This document shows positions 23,039 to 63,266 of a stretch of 64,000 nt of DNA, in pieces; within the stretch, counting starts at the first letter, position 1, and each line of letters begins with the position of its first letter. The position numbers were made by a program, and so were the translations under genes. Origin of the DNA: Ianthella basta (lineage: Eukaryota; Porifera; Demospongiae; Verongiida; Ianthellidae); assembly GCA_964019415.1 (NCBI GenBank), contig OZ025876.1, forward strand, positions 4,583,293-4,647,292. The letters are read 5' to 3'. The notes beneath the pieces were generated by a model that did not search any database, was not told the origin of the DNA, and worked only from the letters and a program-made list of their open reading frames with translations.

Positions 23039-26000
23039 CTAAGCTAAATTGTACATTTCATCATCCTCACTGCTGTACTCCTCCTCACTAGCTGCAGTAC
23101 TGCTTGACTCCTCTTCCTTGCTTGGTGGTCTGAGATGTGTAATACTTCTGTAATACTCTATCAGTTGCAGCCGAGCAGAATCATCTTCTTCCACATTCTC
23201 CATTGAAGGGCGCTCCATTTCTGTCTCCTCTCTGGCAGCAGCTCTCCTCTTCTTACACTTCTGGTAGGCCATAGTGCCCAGCAAGCCAAACAAGTACACA
23301 AGAGGTAGATACATCAGAGCCTGTTGGATGACAAAGACAGCAACCAAACTGTCACCAGGTGTGGCATACGCTAGCTTCAGGTCTAGCAGTAGAATTAGAG
23401 CAAGGTCTCCAAGAATGTCCACTATGTTGAACAGCTTCCTATGGTATGGCTGACAGGCTGTCAACAGCAGCATGTACGCCAAACACAGGGCAATTTGGAT
23501 GATGAAAGAGTCCTCAACTCTGGTTGGAAGGAGGGTTGCCATCAGCTGTGCAATACGGTAGAGTAGGAAAAGGCCAGCAAAGCAGCGGAACCTATCCTTG
23601 AAACAACCTTGGAAAACATTGATGAAATGTCGAATCCATTTCCCAGTGAATATGTCAAGACACAAGTAGTCAAAGACTTTACACTTTCCCATGCAATTCA
23701 AGGATCTGCTTGTGGAGTACCTCATCCTACCATAGAGCTGGGGCAGTACAGGGACAGCCAGTAACACAAAGGTGGGAACAATGACAAGGGAGACTAAAAC
23801 AATCACAGAGGGGATCATAAAGGCAATATGATTCACAGAGGCATACTCTATGGTTCCCTGCCACCACACCACATCCTTCACATCACCAGAAGGTGAAAAG
23901 ATGGACACCTTCACCAAAATGTATGCTGACACCACTAGAAATCGTGTGTAGCCAAGTACAAAGAATGTGGACAGTGCCCGGTCATAGGATGGGTTACCTG
24001 ACATCTTAGACTTTAGGCTTCTCAAACGAGTAAGGCACTTTCTTATTGGTCGGCACACAAGAAGTCTCCAGTACTTGTCACTGCACTTTTCAAGGGCTAC
24101 AAGAGTGAAGACCATCAGAAGTGGGAACAGTCCAATGGTGCACTGGAGCATAAGAACTTGCATGGTGGTGAGATGGGCATGTGGTGTGAGGCAGTAGGGA
24201 GGGAGGAACACACCAAAGTAGTTGAGATTCCAAAACCCATACAGAAACGTGGGAATCTTTGCCACACTCAGATAGGCTGGTGATGATGCAGTGTTTGCTC
24301 GCATGAAGGAAAGCGACAAGATCTGAGCAAAGAGCAGAAAGGAATTCATGTGTCCTGAGAGAAGATCCACGTTGAACAGCAGAACTACCACAAGCATGAT
24401 TGTCAGAGGTACCCACTCACTGATGATCCAAATTAAAATTCCAACAACACTCAAGGTCTCACTGCAGTCCACACAATTTGGGGAAAGGGCACCAAAGTTG
24501 ACAGTGGCACTGTGACCTGCTGCACAGTCACCACAAAGGACACCACTTCGCCTTCCCGCACTGCAAACCATATTGTCCAGTTCCTCTGCAGAGTTGTTGG
24601 GAGGGAGCTGTGTTAGCTCAGGTCTACAGAAACCAGGTGGACAGAGTGAATAGTAGAGTCTCTGTCCATCACAGCTGCCTACATCCTGAGAAGGCAGATA
24701 ACCAATCCAGTAATTGCCAGCTAGGTTGGCTTGATGTGGTGTTGAGTTACAGTTGGTGATTGCAGGAATGCTCTTATCTAAGCACAAGCACTTGAGCTGT
24801 TCCAAGTCAAGGGAGTAGCCAGCAGGACAGCACTGCAGCTCCACATTGCCTGCAAATACCAGTTTCTCATTTTCAACAGATTGAAGGAACAACTGTGGAG
24901 AATCAGCAGCAGTGGCATTCCTGGTAGAAGCAGTGGACTGATCACTCAAATCCGAAATGTAAGTGTTTGGAATACCTCGTAGAATCACCTTGAAGTCTGA
25001 AGTGTAACGAGAGAATGGATCAACCGATAGGTTGAGTACTCCATGTGGGTTCAATAACTGAACAGAGAAGACTGATTGAATGTTGTTGTCATAGTCATCT
25101 AGAACCCCATCAACAGGCAGCTGTGTCTCTTTACCTGGAATGACAGTGAAGGTGGCTAAGCCATTGACATTGCCCTCAGCCCTGCACTGAATACTGCTGG
25201 GTCCAGAGGCAACTTCTTCAGACAGGTCACATGAAGTGTTGTACACTGAGCAGCCCTGTGGAATGTAGTGGAACACATTACTCCACTTCAGTACCTCAGA
25301 AGTGTTTACCAAGTGTACTCCTCCCACTACATCATGATCAGTTAGAGATGGCATGCATGTCAGTGCATCAGAGATGTATACAGAGTTGCCTTCCTGTCCT
25401 GCTGAATTGTTAATGAAAGAGATCCCCACATTTTCCCATAGCTGAGGTGAGAATGTTGGATGTTCTTGGAAGTGATACTGCAAGAAGCAGTTTTGTACTG
25501 ATGTGCGTGGCCCATAGCTTACATCGACATAGATTGCACCGCCATGCTGGAGAGCATAGTTCTGGATGAAGCTCAACTGTACTCCATCAGAAAGTACAAT
25601 GGTGCTATCACTGTACAGTGCCATGGCACCACCATGGGTAGCTACACATGAGTAGAATGTCATGTTTGCACCTGAGTCAAGAAAGAGTACTGAATCAACA
25701 GCAAATATTCCTTGAACATCTCCAATACATGCAAAGTCTTGCTCTCCACTTACTGCTACTCTTGATGATTGAAGATATACCAAACCTTTCCCAGTACTCT
25801 CGAGCTCAACTCGATACTGCACATCAAAAGTAACCTTGTCTATCAATGAAAGTTGTGCATCTAAACTTGCTGACGTATTATCAAGTCTTTCTTTCACTTC
25901 TTTGAAGAAGCGTTTTGATGTAGCAATATTAAGTGTAAGATTACCTGTAGTGGAATCTTGTACAAGTTGAAGGGTCCTGCCAAGATCCATAGTGGAAACA

Positions 26001-28288
26001 TTGGCATAGAACCTGTTCATTGGACCAAGAACGACCACATTTCTATTGGATGTCCCTACTTGATCTGATAAGAAGGTTTCTACGGCGATGGCTGCTCCAT
26101 AGGTGGCAACATTGGCAATGAAATTACAAAACGAAAGCTCCAGAAAGCCTGCAGTGTTTCTCCTGTTAATGACAGATATGCCTCCTCCTACAAGACCCTT
26201 TGCAGTATTGTTGTATAGGGTGCAATGAGTAAGGACAACTGTGTTTGACTTTGTGATCTGCCAGTATTTCGAGCTGGTTAAAAATTCAATGCAAACTCCT
26301 GCACCTCCTCGAGCTCCTTGTTGTTTTTCAGTAGAGGAGATTGGATTTTGCATGAGCACATTGCCATACATCAGGGTTCCATTGATGTCCACTGTGTTTC
26401 TATTTCCCCACTTTGCAAACCTGATGTGTACTGCACCACCATGAGAAGCTGAGTTGTTGTGAATGTAACAGCCTAGTCCACCAACAGCATTTTGATTCAC
26501 TTCATCTGAGAACGAAACACTAATTCCTCCTCCATGTCCGCCTACCATGCCTGGTGCAGCAGTTTCAGCACTCCTTGCAGTGTTGTCCTCACATAGCATC
26601 TTAAAATTTATCATTTTGTTTTTAGTTGCATTTTCAACAAAACCAACGTAAAGTCCCCCTCCAGAAGAAAAGGCAGTGTTGTTGATAAGAATCAATAGAC
26701 GACTAATTATATAATTAAAAGCAGCTCTGGTTTGAAAGACAACCAACATACCTCCCCCACATCCTTTGAACTTCATGTTGCCCTTGTCAGGTGTCTTGCT
26801 ATTATGTAGGATAGAGTTGTTAGTAACAGCCACAGTTTGCAGATACAGTCGGTGCCCAATGGAGCTGTCTTTGTAAATGATGCACATTCCACTTCCTGAC
26901 TCTGCAGAATTCCTATCAATTATCAATGAAATGAAGCCCATTGTACTGGAAATGGACCGATTACAACACAGAACTAGCACGCCACCTCCACAGACCGCAA
27001 AACTGTGCAGTGTGTCAGCATAGTGCGTATTTTCTTCATATCTTGTAGTTTCTTTATATCTCTTAACTGCAGACACATGCACTTTATTGAACTGAATAAG
27101 GCTACTGTTATCTCCAATACTGACTCTGTTTCTGAATGAAGCGTCAAAGTGGCCAATGAACAGACCTCCCCCACCAAATGAAGCTGTGTTATTAACCAAA
27201 GAGAAAGTCTTCCAAAAGGTAACATTGTTGCTGTTTGACAGACCACAAAACACTACCGAAACACCACCTCCAACACCAAGGCAGGTATTCAAGCATGATC
27301 CATTTGCGTTTGTTAAGGGTACTTTGGCTCCCATGACCACATCATTTCTGCCGAACTGATAGCCAAAGTTCAGTGCAAGATGTTTTGGATCAAAAAGTAC
27401 AACATTTTCTGAAGAGTGATCAAAGTGCCCAATGAACATGCCTCCTCCAGAAATGTCAGCTTGGTTGTAGTCCACCATAATTTGCCCACAGAAGGATATT
27501 TCATTTCTGCGGGCATTGCCATGAAATATAATGGATAAGCCACCTCCAAAGCCTTCAAATGGATCTGACATAGTTGGTAAAACAGAAGCATAGCAACGAG
27601 CAACAGTTGAACCAATGCCATCATCATAGCTAGCACTATTTATGAAGTATTTGGCCCCTTCACAAGTGGGATCTAAGGTTGGGCGCTTTTCAGGACAGCC
27701 AGTAAACTCAAAATGAACCCCAGTGCCCTTGCACAGGATCACAAAGAAAGACAGGCTGTTGTTTCCCATTGTGTTGTAGAAAACAATTCCTCTTCCTGAG
27801 CTGTACAGAACAAACACATCTACCATAGTGATATCTCTGCAGGCATGGAAGTACAGAGAGGACTGTCTTACTGGGATTCCTGGTACTGGTCCCCCAGGAC
27901 CACAGTTCCTAAAACGCAAATTGAAAAATGCAATAGCTGTAGTTTGGTGGAACAGGAGGTTATTGTTTGCAGTGCACACAATAGTTACATTGTGTAAACA
28001 CTTTGAGTGTATTTGGATGTTCTCCAATTGCCAAAATGGCGTGTTTCCCTGGAATGGGTGCAGAGGATAGGTTCCACAGTCAATGAAATAGTAAGTGTTG
28101 TTCTTGACATGACTGAAAGCGTAATTCAGTGAAGCACAGGCCGTGCCTTCAGAGGTAGTCCAGTTTCCAAAGTTGTTATACAGGCACTGTGGAGCATCTG
28201 TCCCATTCTCAGCTACTCTGATCACTGTCTGGCTCCACACAGTGGGCAAGGGACAAGAGAGAAGTGCTAGTAGCAACAGAATGGTCAT
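23039..28288 (-). CDS. Giant beta-helix (Pmp-like) multi-span surface protein, copy A
   Basis: A single-exon frame of 1749 residues from the Met that begins MTILLLLALLSCPLPTVWS, a clear signal peptide. The frame extends 13 codons further up to 28327, but a conserved acceptor (CACTTGCAG, exon from 28321) suggests that part is leader. The ectodomain to about residue 1140 holds about 16 glycine-rich strands (GGGLSIIF, GGGMFIGHF, HGGAIYV) with FxxN motifs and many N-glycosylation sites, typical of right-handed beta-helix/Pmp repeats. A cysteine-rich module (about 1150-1275) precedes 8-10 membrane spans (about 1278-1672). The tail is acidic and contains YRSI, a possible YxxPhi sorting motif. Copy A has a single SIIF/GHF/VVF module and lacks two residues in a late span (VDILGDL). 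It looks intact; function unknown, probably adhesion or reception. Confidence 0.85.
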   Translation of the reverse strand: MTILLLLALLSCPLPTVWSQTVIRVAENGTDAPQCLYNNFGNWTTSEGTACASLNYAFSHVKNNTYYFIDCGTYPLHPFQGNTPFWQLENIQIHSKCLHNVTIVCTANNNLLFHQTTAIAFFNLRFRNCGPGGPVPGIPVRQSSLYFHACRDITMVDVFVLYSSGRGIVFYNTMGNNSLSFFVILCKGTGVHFEFTGCPEKRPTLDPTCEGAKYFINSASYDDGIGSTVARCYASVLPTMSDPFEGFGGGLSIIFHGNARRNEISFCGQIMVDYNQADISGGGMFIGHFDHSSENVVLFDPKHLALNFGYQFGRNDVVMGAKVPLTNANGSCLNTCLGVGGGVSVVFCGLSNSNNVTFWKTFSLVNNTASFGGGGLFIGHFDASFRNRVSIGDNSSLIQFNKVHVSAVKRYKETTRYEENTHYADTLHSFAVCGGGVLVLCCNRSISSTMGFISLIIDRNSAESGSGMCIIYKDSSIGHRLYLQTVAVTNNSILHNSKTPDKGNMKFKGCGGGMLVVFQTRAAFNYIISRLLILINNTAFSSGGGLYVGFVENATKNKMINFKMLCEDNTARSAETAAPGMVGGHGGGISVSFSDEVNQNAVGGLGCYIHNNSASHGGAVHIRFAKWGNRNTVDINGTLMYGNVLMQNPISSTEKQQGARGGAGVCIEFLTSSKYWQITKSNTVVLTHCTLYNNTAKGLVGGGISVINRRNTAGFLELSFCNFIANVATYGAAIAVETFLSDQVGTSNRNVVVLGPMNRFYANVSTMDLGRTLQLVQDSTTGNLTLNIATSKRFFKEVKERLDNTSASLDAQLSLIDKVTFDVQYRVELESTGKGLVYLQSSRVAVSGEQDFACIGDVQGIFAVDSVLFLDSGANMTFYSCVATHGGAMALYSDSTIVLSDGVQLSFIQNYALQHGGAIYVDVSYGPRTSVQNCFLQYHFQEHPTFSPQLWENVGISFINNSAGQEGNSVYISDALTCMPSLTDHDVVGGVHLVNTSEVLKWSNVFHYIPQGCSVYNTSCDLSEEVASGPSSIQCRAEGNVNGLATFTVIPGKETQLPVDGVLDDYDNNIQSVFSVQLLNPHGVLNLSVDPFSRYTSDFKVILRGIPNTYISDLSDQSTASTRNATAADSPQLFLQSVENEKLVFAGNVELQCCPAGYSLDLEQLKCLCLDKSIPAITNCNSTPHQANLAGNYWIGYLPSQDVGSCDGQRLYYSLCPPGFCRPELTQLPPNNSAEELDNMVCSAGRRSGVLCGDCAAGHSATVNFGALSPNCVDCSETLSVVGILIWIISEWVPLTIMLVVVLLFNVDLLSGHMNSFLLFAQILSLSFMRANTASSPAYLSVAKIPTFLYGFWNLNYFGVFLPPYCLTPHAHLTTMQVLMLQCTIGLFPLLMVFTLVALEKCSDKYWRLLVCRPIRKCLTRLRSLKSKMSGNPSYDRALSTFFVLGYTRFLVVSAYILVKVSIFSPSGDVKDVVWWQGTIEYASVNHIAFMIPSVIVLVSLVIVPTFVLLAVPVLPQLYGRMRYSTSRSLNCMGKCKVFDYLCLDIFTGKWIRHFINVFQGCFKDRFRCFAGLFLLYRIAQLMATLLPTRVEDSFIIQIALCLAYMLLLTACQPYHRKLFNIVDILGDLALILLLDLKLAYATPGDSLVAVFVIQQALMYLPLVYLFGLLGTMAYQKCKKRRAAAREETEMERPSMENVEEDDSARLQLIEYYRSITHLRPPSKEEESSSTAASEEEYSSEDDEMYNLA

Positions 28289-28327
28289 TTTGTGTACTGT
28301 ATACTTCTGTACTATCAAGCCCTGCAA
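28289..28327 (-). promoter_or_regulatory. Conserved 3' splice site before the signal-peptide Met of copy A
   Basis: CCTTCACTTGCAG/GG ends at 28322 on the minus strand. The same site (CCTTCACATGCAG/GG) stands before copies C (53423), D (62909) and the 5' relic (42130). The sequence between acceptor and Met differs in length and content (33 bases in A, 21 in C and D). This suggests an untranslated first exon further upstream and a start at the signal-peptide Met, not the earlier in-frame ATG. Confidence 0.6.
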
Positions 28328-30890: not shown

Positions 30891-31348
30891 CAAGCATGAA
30901 TTTTATATTTATCTACTGCTTCACTTGCTGACACATTCATTCATTTCAGTTTTGTACACACTAGCCAGTGGATTGACACACAGTTCAGATGTTTCATACA
31001 GCTCATCATCACCAGTAACAAGCATCAAATCCTGTCAGCATACTTTAAAACATGCAGTCTGAGTGTTTGTTATATACTGGTGAAGGTGTCTGAAGTGCCA
31101 TCAAAATGTCCAAACTATGTAGTGCATATGCAGCTGCAGTGAATTTCACACCCTTAATTACCAAACTACAGAGCACGTTTGACTCTCATGCCATGCACCA
31201 CTTTAGTGACCTCATTCCATCACTTGATGCTACTTGCTTTACAACAGCTACAAATAATTAATACTTCAATGGAAAAGTGGCTGTTTCTGCATAATCATTC
31301 TTAGTTGTGCATGCTTGTATAAAATGCATGGCATGTACTAAGTAGATG

Positions 31349-32068
31349 TTACGCTAAATTGTGCAATTGATCATCAGAATCCTCACTGCTGTACTCCTCC
31401 TCTTCTTCACTGGTGAACTCCTCTTCCTTGCTTGGTGGCCTGAGATGTGTGATACTTCTGTAATACTCTATCAGTTGCAGCCGAGCAGAATCATCTTCTT
31501 CCACATTCTTCATTGAAGGGCGCTCCATTTCTGTCTCCTCTCTGGCAGCAGCTCTCCTCTTCTTACACTTCTGGTAGGCCATAGTGTCAAGCAAGCCAAA
31601 CAAGTACACAAGAGGTAGATACATCAGAGCCTGTTGGATGACAATGACAGCAACCAAACCGTCACCAGGTGTGGCATACACTAGCTTCAGGTCTAGCAGT
31701 AGAATTAGAGCAAGGTCTCCAAGAATGAGAACGTCCACTATGTTGAACAGCTTCCTGTGGTATGGCTGACAGGCTGTCAACAGCAGCATGTACGCCAGAC
31801 ACAGGGCAATTTGGATGATGAAGGAGTCCTCAGCTCTGGTCGGAAGTGGGGTTGCTAACAGCTGTGCAATACAGTAGAGTAGAAACATGCCAGCAAAGCA
31901 GCGGAACCTATCCTTGAAGCAACCTTGGAAAACGATGATGAAATGTCGAATCCATTTCCCAGTGAATATGTCAAGACACAAGTAGTCAAAGATTTGGCAC
32001 TTGCTCAAACAATGTAGTTGTCCGTTTGTGGAGTACCTCATCCTACCATAGAGCTGGGGTAGTACAGG
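31349..32068 (-). pseudogene. C-terminal fragment B2 of a beta-helix multi-span gene
   Basis: About 720 bp match the last 240 codons of copies A, C and D: the last membrane spans and the acidic tail, including YRSITHLRPPSKEEE and the stop codon. The homology starts abruptly at 32068, inside the CTGGGGTAGTACAGG segment, and everything 5' is missing. No signal peptide or ectodomain is present, so it cannot make the same product. Its 3' flank (30900-31340) is homologous to that of copy B (33280-33900), so the fragment and flank were duplicated together. The tail remains open, which fits recent truncation or gene conversion. Confidence 0.85.
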
Positions 32069-32089
32069 TGCACTGACAATAATCTAAAG

Positions 32090-32900: not shown

Positions 32901-32924
32901 TTTCAATTGTGGAATACTTAACTG

Positions 32925-33260: not shown

Positions 33261-33903
33261 TAAAACAAGCATGAATTATTGTATTTTGAATCTCTACTGC
33301 TTCACTTTCTGACACAGCTACTTTGCAATGGCAATTTGATTATTTGAATCACTGACAGGTATCACAACTAATATGGCATGTCTCAATTCAGATTAGTCAC
33401 ACATTTCACTTATTTCTAAGCAAATTAAGATTTCACAGCACACCAATATTTTACTCTCTTTTGCAGTAATTAGCTGAGTTCCTAGGAAGTCACTCATTTC
33501 AGTTTTGTACATGCTAGCCTATGGATTGACAAACTATTCAGATGTTTCATACAGCTCATCATAACTTAACAAGCATCAACTCCTGTCCAAACACATTTAA
33601 AACAGTCTGAGTGATTAGTTAGCCATTTATATACTGGTGAAGGTGTCTAAAGTGCCATCAAAATGTCTAAACTATGTAGTGCATGTGCAGCTGCAGTGAA
33701 TTTCACACCCTTAATTACCAAACTACAGAGCATGTTTGACTCTCATGCCATGCACCACTTTAGTGACCTCATTCCATCACTTGATGCTACTTGCTTTACA
33801 ACAGCTTTAATATATACTTCTATGGAAAAGTGGCTGTTTCTGCATAATCACTCTTAGTATTGTGTATGCTTGTATAAAATGCATGGCATGCACTAAGTAG
33901 ATG

Positions 33904-36900
33904 TTAAGCTAAATTATGCATTTGATCATCAGAATCCTTACTGCTGTCCTCCTCCTCCTCTTCACTGGTAAACTCCTCTTCGTTACTTGGTGGCCTGAGA
34001 TGTGTGATACTTCTGTAATACTCTATCAGTTGCAGCCGAGCAGGATCATCTTCTTCCACATTCTCCATTGAAGGGCGCTCCATTTCTGTCTCCTCTCTTC
34101 TTGCACTTCTGATAGGCCATACTGCCCAGCAAGCCAAACAAGTACACAAGAGGTAGATACATCAGAGCCTGTTGGATGACAATGACAGCAACCAAACCAT
34201 CACCAGGTGTGGCATACACTAGCTTGAGGTCTAGCAGTAGAATTAGAGCAAGGTCACCAAGAATGAGAACGTCCACTATGTTGAACAGCTTCCTGTGGTA
34301 TGGCTGACAGGCTGTCAACAGCAGCATATACGCCAGACACAGGGCAATTTGGATGATGAAGGAGTCCTCAACTCTGGTTGGAAGGAGGGTTGCCATCAGC
34401 TGTGCAATACGGTAGAGTAGAAACATGCCAGCAAAGAAACGGAACCTATCCTTGAAACAACCTTGGAAAACATTGATGAAATGTCGAATCCATTTCCCAG
34501 TGAATATGTCAAGACACAAGTAGTCAAAGACTTTGCACTTTCTTAAACAATGCAGTTGTCCGTTTGTGGAGTACCTCATCCTACCATAGAGCTGGGGCAG
34601 TACAGGGACAGCCAGTAACACAAAGGTGGGAACAATGACAAGGGAGACTAAAATGATCAGTGAAGGAATCATGAAGGCAATATGATTCACAGAGGCATAC
34701 TCTATGGTTCCCTGCCACCACACCACATCCTTCACATCACCAGAAGTGGAAATGATGGACACCTTCACCAAAATGTATGCTGACACCACTAGAAATCGTG
34801 TGTAGCCAAGTACAAAGAATGTGGACAGTGCCCGGTCAGAGGGTGGGTTACCTGACACTTTAGACTTTAGGCTTCTCAAACGCGTAAGACACTTTCTTAT
34901 TGGTCGGCACACAAGAAGCCTCCAGTACTTGTCACTGCACTTTTCAAGGGCTACAAGCTTAAGAGTGAAGACCATCAGAAGTGGGAACAGTCCAATGGTG
35001 CACTGGAGCATAAGAACTTGCATGGTGGTGAGATGGGCATGTGGTGTGAGGCAGTAGGAAAGGAGGAACACACCAAAGTAGTTGAGATTCCAAAACCCAT
35101 ACAGAAATTTGGGAATCTTTGCCGTACTCAGATAGGCTGGTGATGATGCAGTGTTTGCTCGCATGAAGAAAAGTGACAAGATCTGAGCAAAGAGCAGACA
35201 GGAATTCATGTGTCCTGAGAGAAGATCCGCGTTGAACAGCAGAACTACAACAAGCATGATTGTCAGAGGTACCCACTCACTGACAATCCAAATCAGCACT
35301 CCAACAACCCTCAACTTCTCACTGCAGTCCACACAATTTGGGGAGAGGGCACCAAAGTTGACAGTGGCACTGTGACCTGCTGCACAGTCACCACAAAGGA
35401 CACCACTTCGCCTTCCTGCACTGCAAACCACTTTGTTCAGTTCCTCTGCAGAGTTGTTGAGAGGGAGCTGTGTTAGCTCAGGTCTACAGAAACCAGGTGG
35501 ACAGGGTGAGTAGTAGAGTCTTTGACCATCACAGCTGCCTACATCCTGAGAAGGTAGATAACCAATCCAGTAGTTGCCAGCTAGGTTGGCTTGATGTGGT
35601 GTTGAGTTACAGTTGGTGATTGCAGGAATGCTCTTATCTAAGCACAAGCACTTGAGCTGTTCCAAGTCAAGGGAGTAGCCAGCAGGACAGCACTGCAGCT
35701 CCACATTGCCTGCAAGTACCAGCTTCTCATTTTCAACAGATTGAAGGAACAACTGTGGAGGATCTAGGTTAGTGGCATTCCTGGTTGGGATATGATTGCT
35801 CTAATCCACAATGTAGGTGTTTGGAATACCTCGTAGAATCACTTTGAAGTCTGAAGTGTAACGAGAGAATGGATCAACCGATAGGTTGAGTGCTCCATGT
35901 GGGTTCAATAACTGAACAGAGAAGACTGATTGAATGTTGTTGTCATAGTCATCTAGAACCCCATCAACAGGCAGCTGTGTCTCTTTGCCTGGAATGACAG
36001 TGAAGGTGGCCAAGCCATTGACATTGACCTCAGCCCTACACTGAATACTGCTGGGTCCAGAGGCAACTTCTTCAGACAGGTCACATGAAGTGTTGTACAC
36101 TGGGCAGCCCTGTGGAATGTAGTGGAACACATTACTCCACTTCAGTACTTCGGTGCTGTTTACCAAGTGTACTCCTCCCACTACATCATGATCAGTTAGA
36201 GATGGCATGCATGTCATTGCATCAGCGATGTAAACAGAGTTGCCTTCCTGTACTGCTGAATTGTTCACAAAGGAGATCCTCACATTTTCCCATAGCTGAG
36301 GCGAGAATGTTGGATGTTCTTGGAAGTGATACTGCAAGAAGCAGTTTTGTACTGATGTGCGTGGCCCATAGCTTGCATCAACATAGATTGCACCGCCATG
36401 CTGGAGAGCATAGTTCTGGATGAAGCTCAACTGTACTCCATCAGAAAGTGCAATGGTGCTATCACTGTACAGTGCCATGGCACCACCATGGGTAGCTACA
36501 CAGAAGTAGAATGTCATGTTTGCACCTGAGTCGTGAAAGAGAACTGAATCAACAGCAAACATGCCTTGGGCTTCTCCCATACACACAAAGACTTGTTCTC
36601 CTTTTACTGCTACTCTTGTAGATTTGAGATATACCAAACCTTTCCCAGTACTCTCGAGCTTAACTCGATACTGCACATCAAAGTTAACACACTTCATTAT
36701 GGAAAGTTGCACATCTAAACTAGCCGAAATATTGTCCACTCCTTCCTGCACTTCTGTAAAGAAGAGGTACAATCTAGCCCAGATGAAATTATTAATAAGT
36801 TGTTGCATCCTGCCAAGCTCGGTAGCAGAAACATTTGCATAAAATCCATTATTTGGCCCAAAATGTACCCTATCCATAGTGGAATTTCTCACTTGGTATG

Positions 36901-37330: not shown

Positions 37331-37443
37331 CATACACAATTACTGTACTCACAGCTCCTCCAGAACACTTTTAAGTCAGTGTGGAGACTTTTTGGTTGTG
37401 TCCAAGAACTCAATTTGAGTGCTGCATACCCATGGTTGACCAC

Positions 37444-37530
37444 ATTACCTATTACCTATTACCTATTACCTATTACCTATTACCTATTACCTATTACCTA
37501 TTTACCTATTACCTATTACCTATTACCTAT
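37444..37530. repeat. Heptamer minisatellite (ATTACCT)n
   Basis: About twelve tandem ATTACCT units with one single-base (T) interruption near 37501. It lies inside the intergenic repeat unit, replacing the single ATTGCCTATTC found at the matching place in 32820-32835. The array therefore expanded locally. Confidence 0.95.
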
Positions 37531-37592
37531 TCACTCCCTAGGAATAAGTAGCTTCCTTGAAGGAGCTTCATGCACTAAAGTTTGCATTGACA

Positions 37593-50000: not shown

Positions 50001-53000
50001 TCTGGATTCCAAGTCGAAAAATTACCATAAAACCTGTTGTTTGGACCCAAAATGACCCTGTGTGTAGTGGAATTCCCCACTTGATATGATGAAAACATTT
50101 CGATGGATATGGCAGCCCCATAGGAAGCAACATTGTGAAGAAATGTACAAAATGAAAGCTCCAGGACGTCTGCACTGTTTCTCCAGTCAATGACAGATAT
50201 GCCTCCTCCTACAAGACCCTTTGCAGTGTTAAAGAGCAGAATGCATTGAGTAAGGTTAACTATGTTTGAAGTTGAAGTTTGCCAATACTTCCAGTCTGTG
50301 TAAAACTCAATGTGAATTCCTCCACCTCCTCCTCCATGCTTAGTGGTAGTACTATTTGAAAATGTCTTTTGATGAAGAAGGTGATTAAGTGCTATTAAGG
50401 AATTGTTAATGTACACTCCATTATTTAATGCCAACTTCTTAAGTTTAATGTGCACTCCACCTCCGTAATCAGCTGAGTTGTTGTAAAGGTACCAGTTGTA
50501 GCCAACGAGCATGTTGTGACTTGCTTCATCTGAGAAAACAATGCTAATCCCTCCTCCACGACCATCTACTTTGCCTGGTCTAGCATCCACTGTGTTGTTC
50601 ACACATGTTAGTGCATTAACATTAATTGTGTTATTATGTGCCTTTTCACAGAAACCAACAAAGAGGCACCCTCCTGCAGTAAATGCAGTGTTATTTGTAG
50701 GTAACGTATTGATAGTAACGTTATTCATGTAAGCTGAAGATTGAAAAACCACCAACATAGCTCCTCCACAACCTTTGAACCTCGTGTCCCCTTTGTCAGA
50801 TGTTCCACTATGTAGGAAAGAATCATTGAAATATGTAAAGACTTGATATACTTGATGCCTGCTAGAGTTGTCCTTAAAAATGACACACATTCCACCACCA
50901 GCCTCTGCGATATTACCACCAAAAGACGAAATCATGTTGAGTTGGCTGGAATGAGACTGATCACAATGGTACACCAGCAAACCACCTCCGCAGAGCATGA
51001 ATCTGTACATATTCTTGAAGTATTGCTCCACACCAGCTCTAAACACTGAGTTGCCAATGAAAATGCTATAGGTAAGAACCGGCCCAATCCATCTCACTAT
51101 TGTACTTTCTCCCAAAGTTACCGTATTCCTAGATGAATTGTTGAAGTGACCTATGAACATGCCACCACCACCAAGAGGAGCAAAATTGTACTGCGAAATG
51201 AATGATCCCAGCAAGGTAACATTGTTGTTGTTTGACATACCACAAAACACTACTGAAACACCACCTCCAACACCAAGGCAGGCATTCAAGCATGATTCGT
51301 TTGCAATTGTTAAGGATGCATTGGTACCTGTGACTGCATTGTCACTAAATAGAATGGAAGACTTAAGATATTTTTGTGACTCAAAGTTTGAAAGGACAAC
51401 ATTTTCTGAAGAGTGATCAAAGTGACCAATGAACATGCCTCCGCCAGAAATGGCAGCCTGGTTGAACCCTGAAGTAAAGTTACCAATAAAGGATATATTG
51501 TTTCCACGGGCATTGCCATGAAAAATGATAGACACGCCACCACCAATGGGAGCAAAATTGTACCCTGAAATGAATGATCCCAGCAAGGTAACATTGTTGT
51601 TGCTTGACATACCACAAAACACTACCGAAACACCACCTCCAACACCAAGGCAGGCATTCAAGCATGATTCATTTGCAATTGTTATGGATGTATTGGTACC
51701 TGTGACTTTATTCTCACTAAACATAATGAAAGACTTAAGATATTTTTGTGACTCAAAGTTTGAAAGGACAACATTTTCTAAAGAGTGATCAAAGTGACCA
51801 ATGAATATGCCTCCTCCAGAAATGGCAGCTCGATTTGACGATGAAGTAAAGTTACCAATAAAGGATATATTGTTTCCATGGGCATTGCCATGAAAAATGA
51901 TAGACACGCCACCACCAATGGGAGCAAAATTGTACCCTGAAATAAATGATCCCAGCAAGGTAACATTGTTGTTGTTTGACATACCACAAAACACTACCGA
52001 AACACCACCTCCTGCACCAAGGCAGGCATTCAAGCATGATCCATTTGCAATTGTCAATGATGCATTGGCACCTGTGACTTCATTGTCACGAAATAGAATG
52101 AAAGAGTTGAGATATTGTGACTCAAAGTTTGAAAGGACAACATTATCTGAAGAGTGATCAAAATGACCAATGAACATGCCTCCGCCAGAAATGACAGCTC
52201 GATTTGATTCTAAAGTAAAGTCACCAGTAAAAGATATATTGTTTCCACGAGCATTGCCATGAAAAATGATAGACACGCCACCTCCTATAAGGGGAGCAAA
52301 ATTGTACCGTGAATTGAATGATCGCATCAAGGCAACATTGTTGCTGTTTGACATACCACAAAACACTACCGAAACACCACCCCCAACACCAAGGCAGGCA
52401 TTCAAGCATGATTCGTTTGCAATTGTTAAGGATGCATTGGTACCTGTGACTTCATTGTCACGAAATACAATTATAGATTTAAGATGTTTTTGTGACTCAA
52501 AGTTTGAAAGGACAACATTTTCTGAAGAGTGATCAAAGTGACCAATGAACATGCCTCCTCCAGAAATGGCAGCTCGATTTGAAAATGAAGTAAAGTTACC
52601 AATGAAGGATATATTGTTTCCACGAGCATTGCCACGAAAAATGATAGACACGCCACCTCCTAAACCTTCAAATGGATTTGATTTGGTTGGCAAAGTGTCA
52701 GCATGACACAACCAAGTACCTGAGCAGCAATGAAGTTTAACACGGTGAATGATGAATTGAGCTCTTTCACAAGTAGGATCTGAGGCAGAATTATGTTCGG
52801 GGCAGCCAGTGAACTCGAAATATACTCCAGAACCTTTGCAGTGTGCTACCATAAAAGACAGTCTGTTGGTGCCCATTGTATTGTAGAAGGCAATACATCG
52901 TCCTGAGCTATTATCAACACCGACGTCCACCAGGATGACATCTCTGCAGGCATGAAAGTACAGGGAAGATGGCCGAATGGGGACTCCTTCCACTGGTTCC

Positions 53001-53401
53001 CCCGGTCCACAGTTCCGGATTGTCACACCAACAATTGTAAGAGCTGTAATCTGATGGAACAGGAGGTTATTCTCTGCAGTGCACACGATAATTACACTAA
53101 ACTCCCCTGGGCACATTGAGTGTATTTGGATGTTCTCCAATTGCCAAAATGGTGTGTTCCCCTGGAATGGGTGCAGAGGATAGGTTCCACAGTCAATGAA
53201 ATAGTAAGTGTTGTTCTTGACATGACTGAAAGCATAATTCAGTGAAGCACAGGCCATGCCTTCTGGGGTAGTCCAGTTTCCAAAATGGTTATACAGGCAC
53301 TGTGGAGCATCTGTCCCATTCTCAGCTACTCTGATCACAGTCTGGCTCCACACTGTGGGCAAGTGGCAAGAGAGAAGTGCTATTAGCAACAGAATGATCA
53401 T
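47039..53401 (-). CDS. Giant beta-helix (Pmp-like) multi-span surface protein, copy C (expanded)
   Basis: A single-exon frame of 2120 residues from the signal-peptide Met (MIILLLIALLSCHLPTVWSQ). The frame opens 21 codons earlier at 53464, but the conserved acceptor at 53423 makes the later Met the likelier start. The domain order is as in copy A: beta-helix ectodomain, cysteine-rich module, 8-10 spans, acidic tail ending DDEMHSLA with the shared YRSITHL. The difference is four tandem copies of a module of about 124 residues (GGGVSIIF, GGGMFIGHF, GGGVSVVFCG) where A and D have one, which accounts for essentially all of the extra 373 residues. Intact through 6.4 kb, so it is very probably functional. 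Its 5' flank is shared with copy D. Confidence 0.87.
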   Translation of the reverse strand: MIILLLIALLSCHLPTVWSQTVIRVAENGTDAPQCLYNHFGNWTTPEGMACASLNYAFSHVKNNTYYFIDCGTYPLHPFQGNTPFWQLENIQIHSMCPGEFSVIIVCTAENNLLFHQITALTIVGVTIRNCGPGEPVEGVPIRPSSLYFHACRDVILVDVGVDNSSGRCIAFYNTMGTNRLSFMVAHCKGSGVYFEFTGCPEHNSASDPTCERAQFIIHRVKLHCCSGTWLCHADTLPTKSNPFEGLGGGVSIIFRGNARGNNISFIGNFTSFSNRAAISGGGMFIGHFDHSSENVVLSNFESQKHLKSIIVFRDNEVTGTNASLTIANESCLNACLGVGGGVSVVFCGMSNSNNVALMRSFNSRYNFAPLIGGGVSIIFHGNARGNNISFTGDFTLESNRAVISGGGMFIGHFDHSSDNVVLSNFESQYLNSFILFRDNEVTGANASLTIANGSCLNACLGAGGGVSVVFCGMSNNNNVTLLGSFISGYNFAPIGGGVSIIFHGNAHGNNISFIGNFTSSSNRAAISGGGIFIGHFDHSLENVVLSNFESQKYLKSFIMFSENKVTGTNTSITIANESCLNACLGVGGGVSVVFCGMSSNNNVTLLGSFISGYNFAPIGGGVSIIFHGNARGNNISFIGNFTSGFNQAAISGGGMFIGHFDHSSENVVLSNFESQKYLKSSILFSDNAVTGTNASLTIANESCLNACLGVGGGVSVVFCGMSNNNNVTLLGSFISQYNFAPLGGGGMFIGHFNNSSRNTVTLGESTIVRWIGPVLTYSIFIGNSVFRAGVEQYFKNMYRFMLCGGGLLVYHCDQSHSSQLNMISSFGGNIAEAGGGMCVIFKDNSSRHQVYQVFTYFNDSFLHSGTSDKGDTRFKGCGGAMLVVFQSSAYMNNVTINTLPTNNTAFTAGGCLFVGFCEKAHNNTINVNALTCVNNTVDARPGKVDGRGGGISIVFSDEASHNMLVGYNWYLYNNSADYGGGVHIKLKKLALNNGVYINNSLIALNHLLHQKTFSNSTTTKHGGGGGGIHIEFYTDWKYWQTSTSNIVNLTQCILLFNTAKGLVGGGISVIDWRNSADVLELSFCTFLHNVASYGAAISIEMFSSYQVGNSTTHRVILGPNNRFYGNFSTWNPDHSWIKEYTTTRSIWENSTNFNDFPVMDIFITRVQGMAANLSASLDELLSLIQRVNFDVQYRIKLESTGNGLVYLKSTRVAVKGEQAFVCMGEAQGMFVVDSVLFLDSGANMKFFYCVATHGGAMALYSDSTIVLSESVQLSFIQNYALQHGGAIYVDVSYGPHTSAQNCFLQYHSQENATFSPQLWENVGISFINNSAGQEGNSVYISDALTCMPSLTDHDVVGGVYLVNSTEVLKWSNVFHYIPQGCSVYNTSCDLSEEVASGPSSIQCRAEVNVNGLATFTVIPGKETQLPVDGVLDDYDNKIHSVFSVQLLNPHGALNLSVDPFSRYTSDFKVILRGIPKTYILHLSNHFPASTRNATAADSPQLFLQSVENEKLVLAGNVELQCCPAGYSLDLEQLKCLCLDKSIPAITNCNSTSLQANLAGNYWIGYLPSQGVGSCDGQRLYYSLCPPGFCRPELTQLPPNNSAEELNKVVCSAGKRSGVLCGDCAAGHSATVNFGALSPNCVDCSETLSVVGVLIWIVSEWVPLTIMLVVVLLVNVDLLSGHMNSFLLFAQILSLSFMRANTASSPAYVSMAKIPTFLYGFWNLNYFGVFLPPYCLTPHAHLTTMQVLMLQCTIGLFPLLMVFTLVALEKCSDKYWRLLVCPLIRKCLARLRGLKSKVSGSPSYDRALSTFFVLGYTRFLVVSAYILVKVSIISTSGDVKDVVWWQGTIEYASVNHIAFMIPSLIILVSLVIVPTFVLLAVPVVPQLYGRMRYSTNGQLHCLRKCKVFDYLCLDIFTGKWIRHFINVFQGCFKDRFRFFAGMFLLYRIAQLMATLLPTRVEDSFIIQIALCLAYMLLLTACQPYHRKLFNIVDILILGDLALILLLDLKLAYATPGDGLVAVIVIQQALMYLPLVYLFGLLGTMAYQKCKKRRAAARDETEMERPSLENVEEDDPARLQLIEYYRSITHLRPPSKGDEFTSEEEDEDSSEESDDEMHSLA
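51170..52660 (-). repeat. Four tandem modules of about 372 bp inside copy C
   Basis: The start of the GGGVSIIF codons (minus-strand reading of GACACGCCACC) recurs at about 51533, 51905, 52274 and 52650, a spacing of 369-376 bp. The modules keep the reading frame and are very similar, while differing at scattered residues (for example FHGNARG versus FHGNAHG, and SNRAAIS versus FNQAAIS). The pattern is recent unequal crossing-over inside a coding exon. Confidence 0.92.
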
Positions 53402-53778
53402 TCTGTCAATCACTTCTGTGCCCTGCATGTGAAGGACACAGTATACACATAACTGACTATGCATACCATGGCTATGTACAGAGCCAGACTTGCATTATAA
53501 GATATGGCATCTACAACACTAGTACATATGTCACAGCAACGTAAGATGCACAACAATTTATATGCACACACTTCTGGTTGGTAGTTGAAACTTCATGACT
53601 GCTGATTACTATGTATATACAATAGTCTTTCACCAGAACAACAAAAGGCTATTATGGGGTTACTGTATGAATACATTTCATAGTTTCATGCAAGCTCAGA
53701 TCCATGTTTAAGTACATGGTGGAGCTAGAAATACGTAGCTAATGAACATTTTCTACAAAACAGCAACAATGTAGGGAT
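53402..53778 (-). repeat. Duplicated 5' flank shared by copies C and D
   Basis: Closely matches 62888-63266, including the leader acceptor and AAGTACATGGTGGAGCTAGA. Homology stops at CAACAATGTAGGGAT, inside what at 63211 is the left arm of a long inverted-repeat element. C and D are therefore each other's closest duplicates and probably share promoter sequence. Confidence 0.8.
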
Positions 53779-57643: not shown

Positions 57644-60600
57644 CTATGGCAAATTGTGCATTTCATCATCAGATTCCTCACTGCTGTCCTCATCTTCTTC
57701 ACTGACAAACTCCTCTTCTTTACTTGGTGGCCTGAGATGTGTGATACTTCTGTAATACTCTATCAGTTGCAGCCGAGCAGGATCATCTTCTTCCACATTC
57801 TCCATTGAATGGCGCTCCATTTCTGTCTCCTCTCTGGCAGCATCTCTCCTCTTCTTGCACTTCTGGTAGACCATAGTGCCCAGCAAGCCAAACAAGTACA
57901 CAAGAGGTAGATACATCAGAGCCTGTTGGATGACAATGACAGCAACCAAACCATCACCAGGTGTGGCATACACTAGCTTCAGGTCTAGCAGTAGAATTAG
58001 AGCAAGGTCTCCAAGAATGAGAACGTCAACTATGTTGAACAGCTTCCTATGGTATGGCTGACAGGCTGTCAACAGCAGCATGTACGCCAGACACAGGGCA
58101 ATTTGGATGATGAAGGAGTCCTCAACTCTGGTTGGAAGGAGGGTTGCCATCAGCTGTGCAATACGGCAGAGTAGAAAAATGCCAGCAAAGAAACGGAACC
58201 TATCCTTGAAACAACCTTGGAAAACATTGATGAAATGTCGAATCCATTTCCCACTGAATATGTCAAGACACAAGTAGTCAAAGACTTTACACTTTCTCAA
58301 ACAATGCAGTTGTCCGTTTGTGGAGTACCTCATCCTACCATAGAGCTGGGGCAGTACAGGGACAGCCAGTAACACAAAGGTGGGAACAATGACAAGGGAG
58401 ACTAAAATGATTAGAGAGGGGATCATAAAGGCAATATGAGCTACGGAGGCATACTCTATGGTTCCCTGCCACCACACCACATCCTTCACATCACCAGAAG
58501 TGGAAATGATGGACACCTTCACCAAAATATATGCTGACACCACTAGAAATCGTGTGTAGCCAAGTACAAAGAATGTGGACAGTGCCCGGTCATAGGATGG
58601 GTTACCTGACACTTTAGATTTCAGGCCTCTCAAACGCGTAAGACACCTTCGTATTGGTCGGCACACAAGAAGACTCCAGTACTTGTCACTGCACTTTTCA
58701 AGGGCTACAAGAGTGAAGACCATCAGAAGTGGGAACAGTCCAATGGTGCACTGGAGCATAAGAACTTGCATGGTGGTGAGATGGGCATGTGGTGTGAGGC
58801 AGTAGGGAGGGAGGAACACACCAAAGTAGTTGAGATTCCAAAACCCATACAGAAATTTGGGAATCTTTGCCATACTCAGATAGGCTGGTGATGATGCAGT
58901 GTTTGCTCGCATGAAGGAAAGTGACAAGATCTGAGCAAAGAGCAGAAAGGAATTCATGTGTCCTGAGAGAAGATCCACATTGAACAGCAGAACTACGACA
59001 AGCATGATTGTCAGAGGTATCCACTCACTGACAATCCAAATTAGAACTCCAACAACACTCAAGGTCTCACTGCAGTCCACACAATTTGGTGAGAGGGCAC
59101 CAAAGTTGACAGTGGCACTGTGACCTGCTGCACAGTCACCACAAAGGACACCACTTCGCCTTCCCGCACTGCAAACCACTTTGTTCAGTTCCTCTGCAGA
59201 GTTGTTGGGAGGGAGCTGTGTTAGCTCAGGTCTACAGAAACCAGGTGGACAGAGTGAGTAGTAGAGTCTCTGTCCATCACAGCTGCCTACATCCTGAGAA
59301 GGTAGATAACCAATCCAGTAGTTGCTAGCTAGGTTGGCTTGATGTGGTGTTGAGTTACAGTTGGTGATTGCAGGAATGCTCTTATCTAAGCACAAGCACT
59401 TGAGCTGTTCCAAGTCAAGGGAGTAGCCAGCAGGACAGCACTGCAGCTCCACATTGCCTGCAAATACCAGTTTCTCATTTTCAACAGATTGAAGGAACAA
59501 CTGTGGAGGATCTAGGTTAGTGACAGTAGAAGTAGATGACTGATCATGATCACTCGAATCCAGAATAAAGGTGTTTGGAATACCTCGTAGAATCACTTTG
59601 AAGTCTGAAGTGTAACGAGAGAATGGATCAACCGATAGGTTGAGTGCTCCATGTGGGTTCAATAACTGAACAGAGAAGACTGATTGAATCTTGTTGTCAT
59701 AGTCATCTAGAACCCCATCAACAGGCAGCTGTGTCTCTTTGCCTGGAATGACAGTAAAAGTGGCCAAGCCATTGACATTGACCTCAGCCCTACACTGAAT
59801 ACTGCTGGATCCAGAGGCAACTTCTTCAGACAGGTCACATGAAGTATTGTACACTGAGCAGCCCTGTGGAATGTAGTGGAACACATTACTCCACTTCAGT
59901 ATCTCAGAACTGTTCACCAAGTGTACTCCTCCCACTACATCATGATCAGTTAGAGATGGCATGCATGTCAGTGCATCAGAGATGTATACAGAGTTGCCTT
60001 CCTGTCCTGCTGAATTGTTAATGAAAGAGATCCCCACATTTTCCCATAGCTGAGGTGAGAATGTTGGATGCTCTTGGAAGTGGTACTGCAAGAAGCAGTT
60101 TTGTGCAGATGTGTGAGGTCCAGAACTTACATCAACATAGATTGCACCGCCATGCTGGAGAGCATAGTTCTGGATGAAGCTCAACTGGACTCCATCAGAA
60201 AGTACAATGGTGCTATCACTGTACAGTGCCATGGCACCACCATGGGTAGCTACACAGTAGATGAACTTCATGTTTGCACCTGAGTCAAGAAAGAGAACTG
60301 AATCAACAGCAAACATGCCTTGGGCTTCTCCCATGCATACAAAGACTTGTTCTCTCTTTACTGCTACTCTTGTAGATTTGAGATATACCAAGCCATTCCC
60401 AGTCGACTCAAGCTTGATTCGGTACGGCACATCAAAATTCACCCTGTGTATCACAGACAGTAGTGCATCTAAACTTGCTGACAAATTTGCAGCCATTCCT
60501 TGTACCCTTGTTATGAAGATATCCATTACTAGAATATCGCTATAATTTGTATTCTTCTCCCAGATGGTGGTGTATTCTCTGAACCAGCTATGGTCTGGAT

Positions 60601-62887
60601 TCCAAGTTGAATAATTTCCATAAAACCTGTTGTTTGGACCCAAAACGACCCTGTGTGTAGTGGAATTCCCCACTTGGTATGATGGAAACATTTCAATGGA
60701 TATGGCGGCCCCATAGGAAGCAACATTACTAACAAATGTGCAAAATGAAAGCTCCAGGACGTCTGCACTGTTTCTCCAGTCAATGACAGATATGCCTCCT
60801 CCTACAAGACCCTTTGCAGTGTTAAAGAGCAGAATGCATTGAGTAAGGTTAACAATGTTTGAAGTTGAAGTCTGCCAATACTTCCAGTCTGTGTAAAACT
60901 CAATGCGAATTCCTCCACCTCCTCCTTGATGTTTAGTGGTAGTACTATTTGAAAATGTCTTTTGATGAAGAAGGTGATTAAGTGCTATGAAGGAATTGTT
61001 AATGTACACTCCATTATTTAATGCCAACTTCTCAAAATTAATGTGCACTCCACCTCCGTAATCAGCTGAATTGTTGCAAAGGACCCAGTTGTAGCCACTG
61101 AACATGTTGCCACTTGCTTCATCTGAGAAAACGATGCTAATCCCTCCTCCACGACCATCTACTTTGCCTGGTCTAGAATTCACTGTGTTGTTCACACATG
61201 ATAGTGCATTAACATTAATTGTGTTATTATGTGCCTTTTCACAGAAACCTACAAAGAGGCCCCCTCCTGCAGTAAATGCAGTGTTATTTTCGACAATCAA
61301 TTCATAGCTGCTAGTAATGTTATTCATTGAAGCTGAAGATAAAAAGGCTACCAACATAGCTCCTCCACAACCTTTGAACCTCTTGTCCCCTTTGTCAGAT
61401 GTTCCACTATGTAGGAAAGAATCATTGAATTGTGCATAGAATTGGTGGATTTGATGCCTGCTAGAGTTGTCCTTAAAAATGGCACACATTCCACCACCAG
61501 CCTCTGCGATATTACCAACAAAAAACGAAACCATGTTGAGTCGGCTGGAATGGGACTGATCACAATGGTACACCAGCAAACCACCTCCACAGAGCATGAA
61601 TCTGTACATATTCTTGAAGTATTGCTCCACACCAGCTCCAAACACTGAGTTGTCAACGAAAATACTATAGGTAAGAACCGAATCAATCCTACTCACTAGT
61701 GAATGTTCTCCCAAAGTTACGGTATTCCTAGATGAATTGTTGAAGTGACCTATGAACATGCCACCACCACCAAGGGGAGCAAAATTGTACTGCGAAACGA
61801 ATGATCCCAGCAAGGTAACATTGTTGTTGTTTGACATACCACAAAACACTACCGAAACACCACCTCCAACACCAAGGCAGGCATTCAAGCATGATTCGTT
61901 TGCAATTGTTAAGGATGCATTGGTACCTGTGACTTCATTGTCACGAAATAGAATGAATGACTTAAGATATTTTTGTGACTCAAAGTTTGAAAGGACAACA
62001 TTTTCTGAAGAGTGATCAAAGTGACCAATGAATATGCCTCCTCCAGAAATGGCAGCTCGATTTGAAAATGAAGTAAAGTTACCAGTAAGGGATATATTGT
62101 TTCCACGAGCATTGCCACGAAAAATGATAGACAAGCCACCTCCTAAACCTTCAAATGGATTTGATTTGGTTGGCAAAGTGTCAGCACGACACAACATAAC
62201 ACCCGAGCCTAAACCAATTGTGTATTTGACAGTGTGAATTAAGTACTGGGCTCCTTCACAAGTAGGATCTGAGGCAGGATTGCGTTTGGGGCAACCGGTG
62301 AACTCGAAATATACCCCAGAGCCCCTGCAGATCGACACAATAAAAGATAGGCTATTGATGCCCATTGTATTGTAGAAAGCAATACCTCGTCCTGAGCTAT
62401 ATAAAACAGAAACATGTATGGTGACATCTCTGCAGGCATGAAAGTACAAGGAAGATGGCCGTATTGGAACTCCTTCCACTGGTTCCCCCGGTCCACAGTT
62501 CCGGATTTCTAAATCAGAAACTGTAACAGCCGTGCTTTGGTGGAACAGGAGGTTATTCTTTGCAGTGCACACAATAGATGCATTAAAATCCCCTGGGCAC
62601 ATTGAGTGTATTTGGATGTTCTCCAATTGCCAAAATGGTGTGTTCCCCTGGAATGGGTGCAGAGGATGGTATCCACAGTCAATGAAATAGTAAGTGTTGT
62701 TCTTGATATGACTGAAAGCATAATTCAGTGAAGCACAGGCCATGCCTTCAGGGGTAGTCCAGTTTCCAAAGTTGTTATACAGGCACTGTGGAGCATCTGT
62801 CCCATTCTCAGCTACTCTGATCACTGTCTGGCTCCACACAGTGGGCAAGGTACAAGAGAGAAGTGCTATTAGCAACAGAATGGTCAT
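57644..62887 (-). CDS. Giant beta-helix (Pmp-like) multi-span surface protein, copy D
   Basis: A single-exon frame of 1747 residues from the signal-peptide Met (MTILLLIALLSCTLPTVWSQ). The frame opens earlier at 62950, but the conserved acceptor at 62909 argues for the later start. It has one SIIF/GHF/VVF module, the same cysteine-rich region (CCPAGYSLDLEQLKCLCLDK), the multi-span domain and the YRSITHLRPPSKEEE tail. It ends MHNLP where A, B, B2 and C end with NLA or SLA, and its sequence beyond the stop is unrelated to theirs, so the duplication breakpoint lies at the last codons. The N-terminal ectodomain is very close to copy C and clearly less like copy A. No lesions are seen. Function unknown, presumably the same class of surface receptor or adhesion protein. 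Confidence 0.87.
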   Translation of the reverse strand: MTILLLIALLSCTLPTVWSQTVIRVAENGTDAPQCLYNNFGNWTTPEGMACASLNYAFSHIKNNTYYFIDCGYHPLHPFQGNTPFWQLENIQIHSMCPGDFNASIVCTAKNNLLFHQSTAVTVSDLEIRNCGPGEPVEGVPIRPSSLYFHACRDVTIHVSVLYSSGRGIAFYNTMGINSLSFIVSICRGSGVYFEFTGCPKRNPASDPTCEGAQYLIHTVKYTIGLGSGVMLCRADTLPTKSNPFEGLGGGLSIIFRGNARGNNISLTGNFTSFSNRAAISGGGIFIGHFDHSSENVVLSNFESQKYLKSFILFRDNEVTGTNASLTIANESCLNACLGVGGGVSVVFCGMSNNNNVTLLGSFVSQYNFAPLGGGGMFIGHFNNSSRNTVTLGEHSLVSRIDSVLTYSIFVDNSVFGAGVEQYFKNMYRFMLCGGGLLVYHCDQSHSSRLNMVSFFVGNIAEAGGGMCAIFKDNSSRHQIHQFYAQFNDSFLHSGTSDKGDKRFKGCGGAMLVAFLSSASMNNITSSYELIVENNTAFTAGGGLFVGFCEKAHNNTINVNALSCVNNTVNSRPGKVDGRGGGISIVFSDEASGNMFSGYNWVLCNNSADYGGGVHINFEKLALNNGVYINNSFIALNHLLHQKTFSNSTTTKHQGGGGGIRIEFYTDWKYWQTSTSNIVNLTQCILLFNTAKGLVGGGISVIDWRNSADVLELSFCTFVSNVASYGAAISIEMFPSYQVGNSTTHRVVLGPNNRFYGNYSTWNPDHSWFREYTTIWEKNTNYSDILVMDIFITRVQGMAANLSASLDALLSVIHRVNFDVPYRIKLESTGNGLVYLKSTRVAVKREQVFVCMGEAQGMFAVDSVLFLDSGANMKFIYCVATHGGAMALYSDSTIVLSDGVQLSFIQNYALQHGGAIYVDVSSGPHTSAQNCFLQYHFQEHPTFSPQLWENVGISFINNSAGQEGNSVYISDALTCMPSLTDHDVVGGVHLVNSSEILKWSNVFHYIPQGCSVYNTSCDLSEEVASGSSSIQCRAEVNVNGLATFTVIPGKETQLPVDGVLDDYDNKIQSVFSVQLLNPHGALNLSVDPFSRYTSDFKVILRGIPNTFILDSSDHDQSSTSTVTNLDPPQLFLQSVENEKLVFAGNVELQCCPAGYSLDLEQLKCLCLDKSIPAITNCNSTPHQANLASNYWIGYLPSQDVGSCDGQRLYYSLCPPGFCRPELTQLPPNNSAEELNKVVCSAGRRSGVLCGDCAAGHSATVNFGALSPNCVDCSETLSVVGVLIWIVSEWIPLTIMLVVVLLFNVDLLSGHMNSFLLFAQILSLSFMRANTASSPAYLSMAKIPKFLYGFWNLNYFGVFLPPYCLTPHAHLTTMQVLMLQCTIGLFPLLMVFTLVALEKCSDKYWSLLVCRPIRRCLTRLRGLKSKVSGNPSYDRALSTFFVLGYTRFLVVSAYILVKVSIISTSGDVKDVVWWQGTIEYASVAHIAFMIPSLIILVSLVIVPTFVLLAVPVLPQLYGRMRYSTNGQLHCLRKCKVFDYLCLDIFSGKWIRHFINVFQGCFKDRFRFFAGIFLLCRIAQLMATLLPTRVEDSFIIQIALCLAYMLLLTACQPYHRKLFNIVDVLILGDLALILLLDLKLVYATPGDGLVAVIVIQQALMYLPLVYLFGLLGTMVYQKCKKRRDAAREETEMERHSMENVEEDDPARLQLIEYYRSITHLRPPSKEEEFVSEEDEDSSEESDDEMHNLP

Positions 62888-63266
62888 TCTGTAAATCACT
62901 TCTGTGCCCTGCATGTGAAGGACACAGTATACACATAACTGACTATGCATACCATAGCTATGTACAGAACCAGACTTGCATTATAAGATATGGCATCTAC
63001 AACACTAGTACATATGTCACAGCAGCTTAAGATGCACAACAATTTATATGCACACACTTCTGGTTGGTAGTGGAAACTGCATGACTGCTGATTACTACAT
63101 ATATATAATAGTCTTTCACCAGAATAACAAAAGGCTATTATGGGGTTACTGTATGAATACTTCTTATAGTTTCCTGCAAGCTCAGATCCATGTTTAAGTA
63201 CATGGTGGAGCTAGAAATACGTAGCTAATAATCATTTTCTACAAAACAGCAACAATGTAGGGATGG
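62888..63266 (-). repeat. Duplicated 5' flank of copy D
   Basis: Partner of 53402-53778. It contains the leader acceptor at 62909 and the likely proximal promoter of copy D. Confidence 0.8.

Follow-up and report, generated by a model that had tools for sequence, protein, structure and literature searches.

Long, variable surface ectodomains built from repeats of the GGA(I,L,V)/FxxN type are found in chlamydial Pmp proteins (PF02415, TIGR01376), which form a multigene family. These motifs fall into a longer repeat unit, equivalent in predicted models to the coils of a beta-helix, and the proteins are autotransporters with a C-terminal beta-barrel (PMC11166332). Pmp-repeat ectodomains also occur in a eukaryote. 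The trichomonad study reports 48 Pmp-like genes in T. vaginalis and describes proteins with a C-terminal transmembrane domain as membrane anchor (one is drawn) and an acidic cluster in the cytoplasmic tail (PMC6701047). Clustered protocadherins are comparable by analogy, being tandem genes with a variable outer part, and in fugu the 3' regions of their variable exons are homogenised by gene conversion (PMC1852091).

The sponge Ianthella basta encodes a family that resembles each of these systems in part. It shares the repeat type, the long variable ectodomain and the multigene organisation of chlamydial Pmps, but where these have a beta-barrel it has a cysteine knot, about nine predicted alpha spans and a cytoplasmic tail. 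The knot and the number of spans also separate it from the trichomonad proteins, and its sites number at least 224. Protocadherins are unrelated proteins, whereas here the membrane part, with its roughly nine putative spans, and the tail share a frame with the ectodomain. No description of such an animal family was recognised in titles and abstract openings, mostly from outside subscription journals. Our leading, though tentative, reading is that these are duplicating surface recognition or adhesion proteins, in which diversified rods may be set on a shared anchoring or signalling module.

The window, a stretch of 64,000 nucleotides (positions 4583293-4647292 of contig 9 in a 209-Mb assembly of 96 contigs), covers one end of a family array. 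As the earlier note had proposed, three intact frames lie on the minus strand, all of them open end to end: gene A (23039-28327, 1762 codons), gene C (47039-53464, 2141 codons) and gene D (57644-62950, 1768 codons). A signal-peptide-like stretch is in frame in each. Gene A starts with TTG and its first ATG is codon 14, directly ahead of the signal peptide, while the signal peptide of D probably starts at the ATG of codon 22. The broken copy, the fragment and the 5' relic of the initial description were also located on the minus strand. Copy B (33910-37330) retains only the 3' two thirds of a gene, lacking the 5' part, and is made up of two open stretches, 512 and 584 codons long, and a further piece that lies in another frame, with 12 stops in its main frame over 33894-37450. 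Fragment B2 with its flank (30937-32083) is a duplicate of the 3' end of B; its coding similarity covers 31433-32083, and 30937-32068 is a 91% copy of 33490-34606. The relic of a family N-terminus (41985-42122) aligns over 46 residues at 56.5% identity (E 8e-7).

The domain order of the family can be followed in gene D (minus strand), where a single uninterrupted frame runs from a Pmp-like ectodomain through a cysteine-rich module and a polytopic domain into an acidic tail, the parts listed in the earlier note. A scan of D against A and the distribution of motifs delimit a variable 5' half with the signal peptide and most Pmp-type repeats (60311-62950), and sequence comparison delimits a homogenised 3' half (57644-60310). 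The latter holds the last helix repeats, the cysteine-rich CCPAGY...LCGDC region with a DUF7630-like knot that scores below the Pfam cut-off in D (59021-59449), nine proposed membrane spans placed by hand (57869-59020) and, by hydropathy and tail comparison, an acidic cytoplasmic tail with a THLRPPSKEEE motif (57647-57868).

The ectodomains carry Pmp-type repeats, of which the glycine part is the stronger. GG[GAC] followed by a hydrophobic residue occurs 12, 23 and 14 times in A, C and D, far above shuffle means of 0.85, 1.44 and 0.76, so this half of the proposed GGG/GGA plus FxxN repeat stood; FxxN alone proved weak, its 9, 19 and 11 occurrences lying inside the shuffle range (means 5.3, 9.8 and 6.1). 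The combined motif N-x-[ASTP]-x(3,4)-GG[GAC]-hydrophobic is found 6, 13 and 7 times against means of 0.04-0.07, counts that include overlapping starts (two of the seven in D overlap) and that none of 2000 shuffles reaches. In 10 of 13 ectodomains its count is above that of every one of the 2000 shuffles; it is weaker in L052 (reached by 3 of 2000 shuffles) and is absent from both second-branch proteins, L054 and L055, whose ectodomain may for that reason be another or a degenerate helix. The Pfam Beta_helix model is weak in L055 (13.7 against a cut-off of 25.9). Glycine autocorrelation, lags 1-2 aside, is highest at 31-33 residues for D and at 31 for L050.

A profile search of the ectodomain by itself, suggested in the earlier note, retrieved Pmp models. 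With 17.9 bits against a cut-off of 15, the NCBI model POMP_repeat (TIGR01376) is above threshold in D; at E<=1 it matches six of eight ectodomains (best 0.00089) and none of 14 membrane parts. Chlam_PMP (PF02415) matches four of eight ectodomains (best 5.2e-7); it is over the cut-off in whole L051 and under it in A, C and D, and across the genome itself none of 122 candidates matched at E<=0.001, although the whole L051 protein passes. No Pfam match to an autotransporter beta-barrel or Pmp middle domain was obtained at E<=1, and hydrophobic alpha spans are present instead. From its sequence motifs, a beta-helix fold of the family ectodomain is likely. AlphaFold 2 is reported to predict beta-solenoids too readily (PMC11795689). 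The matches to Pmp-repeat models would also suit horizontal transfer of the ectodomain from a bacterial Pmp-type protein, followed by its fusion to a membrane module already present in the animal; transfer has been proposed for trichomonad Pmps (PMC6701047). We consider this origin highly unlikely here, the match being limited to short repeats, which can converge, and no bacterial relative having emerged from a scan that covered the membrane module.

The window genes pass no Pfam cut-off, and the family is almost unannotated. Automatic annotation of sponge genomes calls some genes 'probable outer membrane protein pmp'.

The knot, G-x-LC-x-x-C, precedes the first span and resembles Pfam DUF7630 (PF24633), a model that spans 45 knot positions and includes neither membrane spans nor helix. 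Against a cut-off of 27 bits, L054 scores 27.6, L055 25.1, A 11.6 and D 11.5, and the cut-off is passed by at least 26 sites of the genome among the best 150 of 173 candidates. The knots align across the family branches.

Mean hydropathy over 11 members shows 11 peaks. In the nine-span reading the shoulder at D residue 1299 is merged with span 1; of the two weak peaks, that at 1344 (1.01) is taken as span 2 and that at 1375 (0.98) as an outside loop. Lysine and arginine number 10, 10 and 2 in the inside loops (0 in a three-residue inside loop) and 2, 2, 1 and 0 in the outside loops; together with 31 sequons in the ectodomain and none beyond it, this fits about nine spans with the ectodomain outside and the tail inside. 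This falls within the 8-10 spans first estimated; because the spans were placed by hand, the count may be off by one or two. The acidic tail was likewise confirmed. An LRPP, LRAG or LRPGPP string stands ahead of the acidic residues in 46 of 53 tails, duplicate loci included, and is found in both family branches. The seven tails without it are those of L013, L041 and L042 (wrongly picked frames), L029 (LHAG) and L051-L053. Neither the Pmp-type motif nor the LRPP tail is thus universal, the former being absent from L054/L055 and the latter from L051-L053.

In all cross-subfamily comparisons made, the membrane module is the most conserved part. In L051 and L052 identity to D amounts to 22% and 30% over the ectodomain and to 27% over the module, and both retain the whole layout: a signal peptide, then repeats, cysteine region, CGxC-like knot, spans and tail. 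L053, a 671-aa frame that lacks repeats, consists of the module behind a signal peptide of its own, and a search with it reaches the D site (32% identity, E 1.3e-58). The fusion of helix and polytopic domain, which had been called unusual, is common in this genome, where the stand-alone module is also present. Contig 10, which carries L053, has stand-alone module genes at eight places with 96-100% identity; in-frame stops interrupt several of them, and relatives at 71% are found on contigs 1, 7 and 19.

A module that occurs alone with a signal peptide, and that is the best conserved part across the subfamilies compared, could be the working part of a ligand-gated channel, transporter or sensor, with the helix as a ligand-sensing or filtering domain. 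We regard this as improbable, since Pfam families of channels, transporters and GPCRs were all missing at E<=1 from the proteins scanned, and no solved relative was found. The profile search of the membrane part, also proposed at the outset, yielded the DUF7630-like knot. Pfam membrane domains of the adhesion GPCR, TRP and polycystin types were absent at E<=1 from A, C, D, 14 members of set A2, L044, L045 and L051-L055, although remote homology is possible. Among solved structures D retrieved one chance-level chain (E 0.28), two profiles none and the broad module two chance-level chains. With tblastn, no relatives of the membrane module were detected in viral contigs or in bacterial and archaeal genomes, in scans that are each seeded by two short peptide patterns and may therefore overlook relatives.

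The principal new result is a variable/constant split within an uninterrupted frame, which was absent from the earlier note, as was the genome-wide scale of the family. An outer half that differs among neighbours, on a membrane half that stays uniform, is also a feature of some recognition-receptor families. Measured per 300 aligned nucleotides, identity between D and A is 54-81% over the 5' part and 90-97% over the 3' part; the 5' half of A is diverged and its 3' half homogenised. The best segment of the D-A scan, counted from 63050 (100 nt ahead of the first ATG of D), runs from about 60311 to 57726, with a mismatch of 0.051 inside and 0.312 outside; the boundary has a z of -24.5, against a maximum of 5.2 in 60 permutations. 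In other terms, A and D differ at 5% of sites over the last 2.6 kb and at 31% elsewhere. Copy B shows the same step in identity against A, C and D. Gene A is 54-60% identical to eight array members in the helix and 91-93% in the 3' part, and the principal helix matches to D within the array range from 54% to 96%.

Synonymous divergence follows the step. Among the 15 pairs examined, two of which were saturated, D-A has a dS of 0.19 over the first 150 codons and 0.87 in the helix, and the values of 0.14 and 0.10 for the 3' part amount to a 6-8-fold fall from the helix. In D-C dS is flat (0.10-0.18), which argues against regional constraint on synonymous sites. A drop is also seen in L047-L050 (0.89 to 0.32) and L045-L050 (3.1 to 0.79), where the adjoining parts of the ectodomain have diverged like the helix. 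The step in divergence and the drop in dS point to gene conversion or recombination, by which the 3' part would have been evened out among the tandem paralogs of contig 9 beyond what constraint would do. Homogenisation of the 3' end, as in protocadherins, was thus found in the contig-9 array and is absent in L049-L050, which has no dS drop (0.18 to 0.19). GC3 was also considered as a mark of conversion and set aside as unspecific: all 13 genes, solitary members included, have a higher value in their 3' part.

No dN/dS above 1 was found in any pair or window, the helix reaching 0.91 in the recent pair D-L032. Diversifying selection accordingly found no support in the pairs compared. These ratios, below 1 and relaxed in the helix (0.41-0.91 in several array pairs), fit tolerated change, as would be expected of a structural or adhesive coat, a dense layer of rods on particular cells whose helix variation is mostly tolerated drift without specific recognition. 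The long repeat ectodomain and its many sequons are consistent with such a coat. A single anchor would presumably suffice for it, however, and a nine-span module with a conserved tail motif exceeds that need; we consider the coat possible but somewhat unlikely. As a single role, recognition appears the most likely from the sequences, with an adhesive coat second.

The helix also varies in length. Gene C has four tandem in-frame copies of a helix unit of 372 bp (124 aa) at 51165-52660 (minus strand), of which D has one, and matches to this unit recur in further array members. The array comprises 17 module sites over 198 kb, 12 of them in frames of at least 1200 aa; among these 12, the site at 4681268 has lost the membrane end in its frame and that at 4767799 is partly masked. 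A helix-only search adds places at 4720680 and 4759908, neither with a module match to the knot probe. The cluster first noticed was real but its extent was understated, as the array runs about 160 kb past the window and the family is genome-wide.

Family members, which the earlier note had wanted counted, amount to at least 224 non-redundant membrane-module sites in this genome (the union of two probes), a lower bound because scoring covered the best candidates only. A knot probe of 119 aa around the CGxC knot matched all of the best 150 of 270 candidates, 136 near (at least 46% identity) and 14 distant (32-41%), and a second-branch probe of 147 aa gave 92 matches among 117 candidates, all scored. 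With the C-terminal 600 aa of D, 73 of 356 candidates were scored and 73 matched; with the L050 module, 75 of 335 were scored and 75 matched. Pieces less than 1500 bases apart were merged, and at least some further sites on contigs 15 and 10 lie outside the union, as do 11 near sites that sit on contig 86 and resemble copies of contig 4. On contigs 4 and 86 alike, pairs of family sites with equal scores lie about 52.9 kb apart; these pairs are a large recent duplication, and contig 86 is probably a second copy of part of contig 4. By frame length, 161 of the 224 sites are in frames of at least 1200 aa, 33 in frames of 600-1199 aa and 30 in shorter ones. Frames were measured from stop to stop and one long frame may hold two sites; as a long frame is not necessarily an intact gene, the number of intact genes among these sites is at most 161. 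Tandem and broken copies, the array and the 224 or more sites agree with the duplicating and decaying family initially suspected. Judged from its frames and copies, the family is still duplicating and is encoded in single uninterrupted, intron-free frames.

Neighbouring genes seem to be intron-bearing, given the split exons of an Arf-family gene at 9743-10480 (plus strand), which are interrupted by a low-complexity repeat. Two single-frame TRIM-like genes with 96% DNA identity lie in the cluster region on opposite strands (18227-20605, plus; 38921-41302, minus), with B-box, filamin and NHL domains over the cut-off and RING under it. A retrotransposon fragment at 43337-44011 (minus strand), with RT_RNaseH and Integrase_H2C2 over the cut-off, adjoins an open stretch to 44570. 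Wnt genes gave 34 exon-level matches (best E 1.8e-66), indicating an animal genome, and contamination is unlikely because Wnt genes and family members share contigs 6 and 7. A silicatein probe gave full-length matches at 38-39% and shorter ones at up to 67%, figures that carry no weight for placing the animal. Wnt-like exons form a tandem cluster on contig 16 (1991483-2026924).

In the leading reading, the ectodomain would be a parallel beta-helix rod whose distal coils might meet diverse ligands, such as microbial surfaces or other cells, and the cysteine knot would couple the rod to the membrane bundle. Through the shared bundle and LRPP-acidic tail, every member could be connected to a common route of anchoring, trafficking or signalling. 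Duplication, the addition or removal of 124-aa helix units, and conversion tracts that homogenise the membrane half and spare the helix half would together give rise to new specificities. A narrower version, rather unlikely in our estimation, is a repertoire for self/non-self or microbe recognition with beta-helix rods on a nine-span module at more than 200 loci, without immunoglobulin-type domains, in which conversion would hold the signalling half constant as the rods diverge and grow in steps of 124 aa.

The variable/constant split in one frame offers a clean natural example of how conversion or recombination can affect only one half of a gene. About 161 long open frames of one plan would make this family a major surface-protein repertoire of the animal and, if its members are recognition receptors, they would provide a testable route to how this animal distinguishes cells and microbes.
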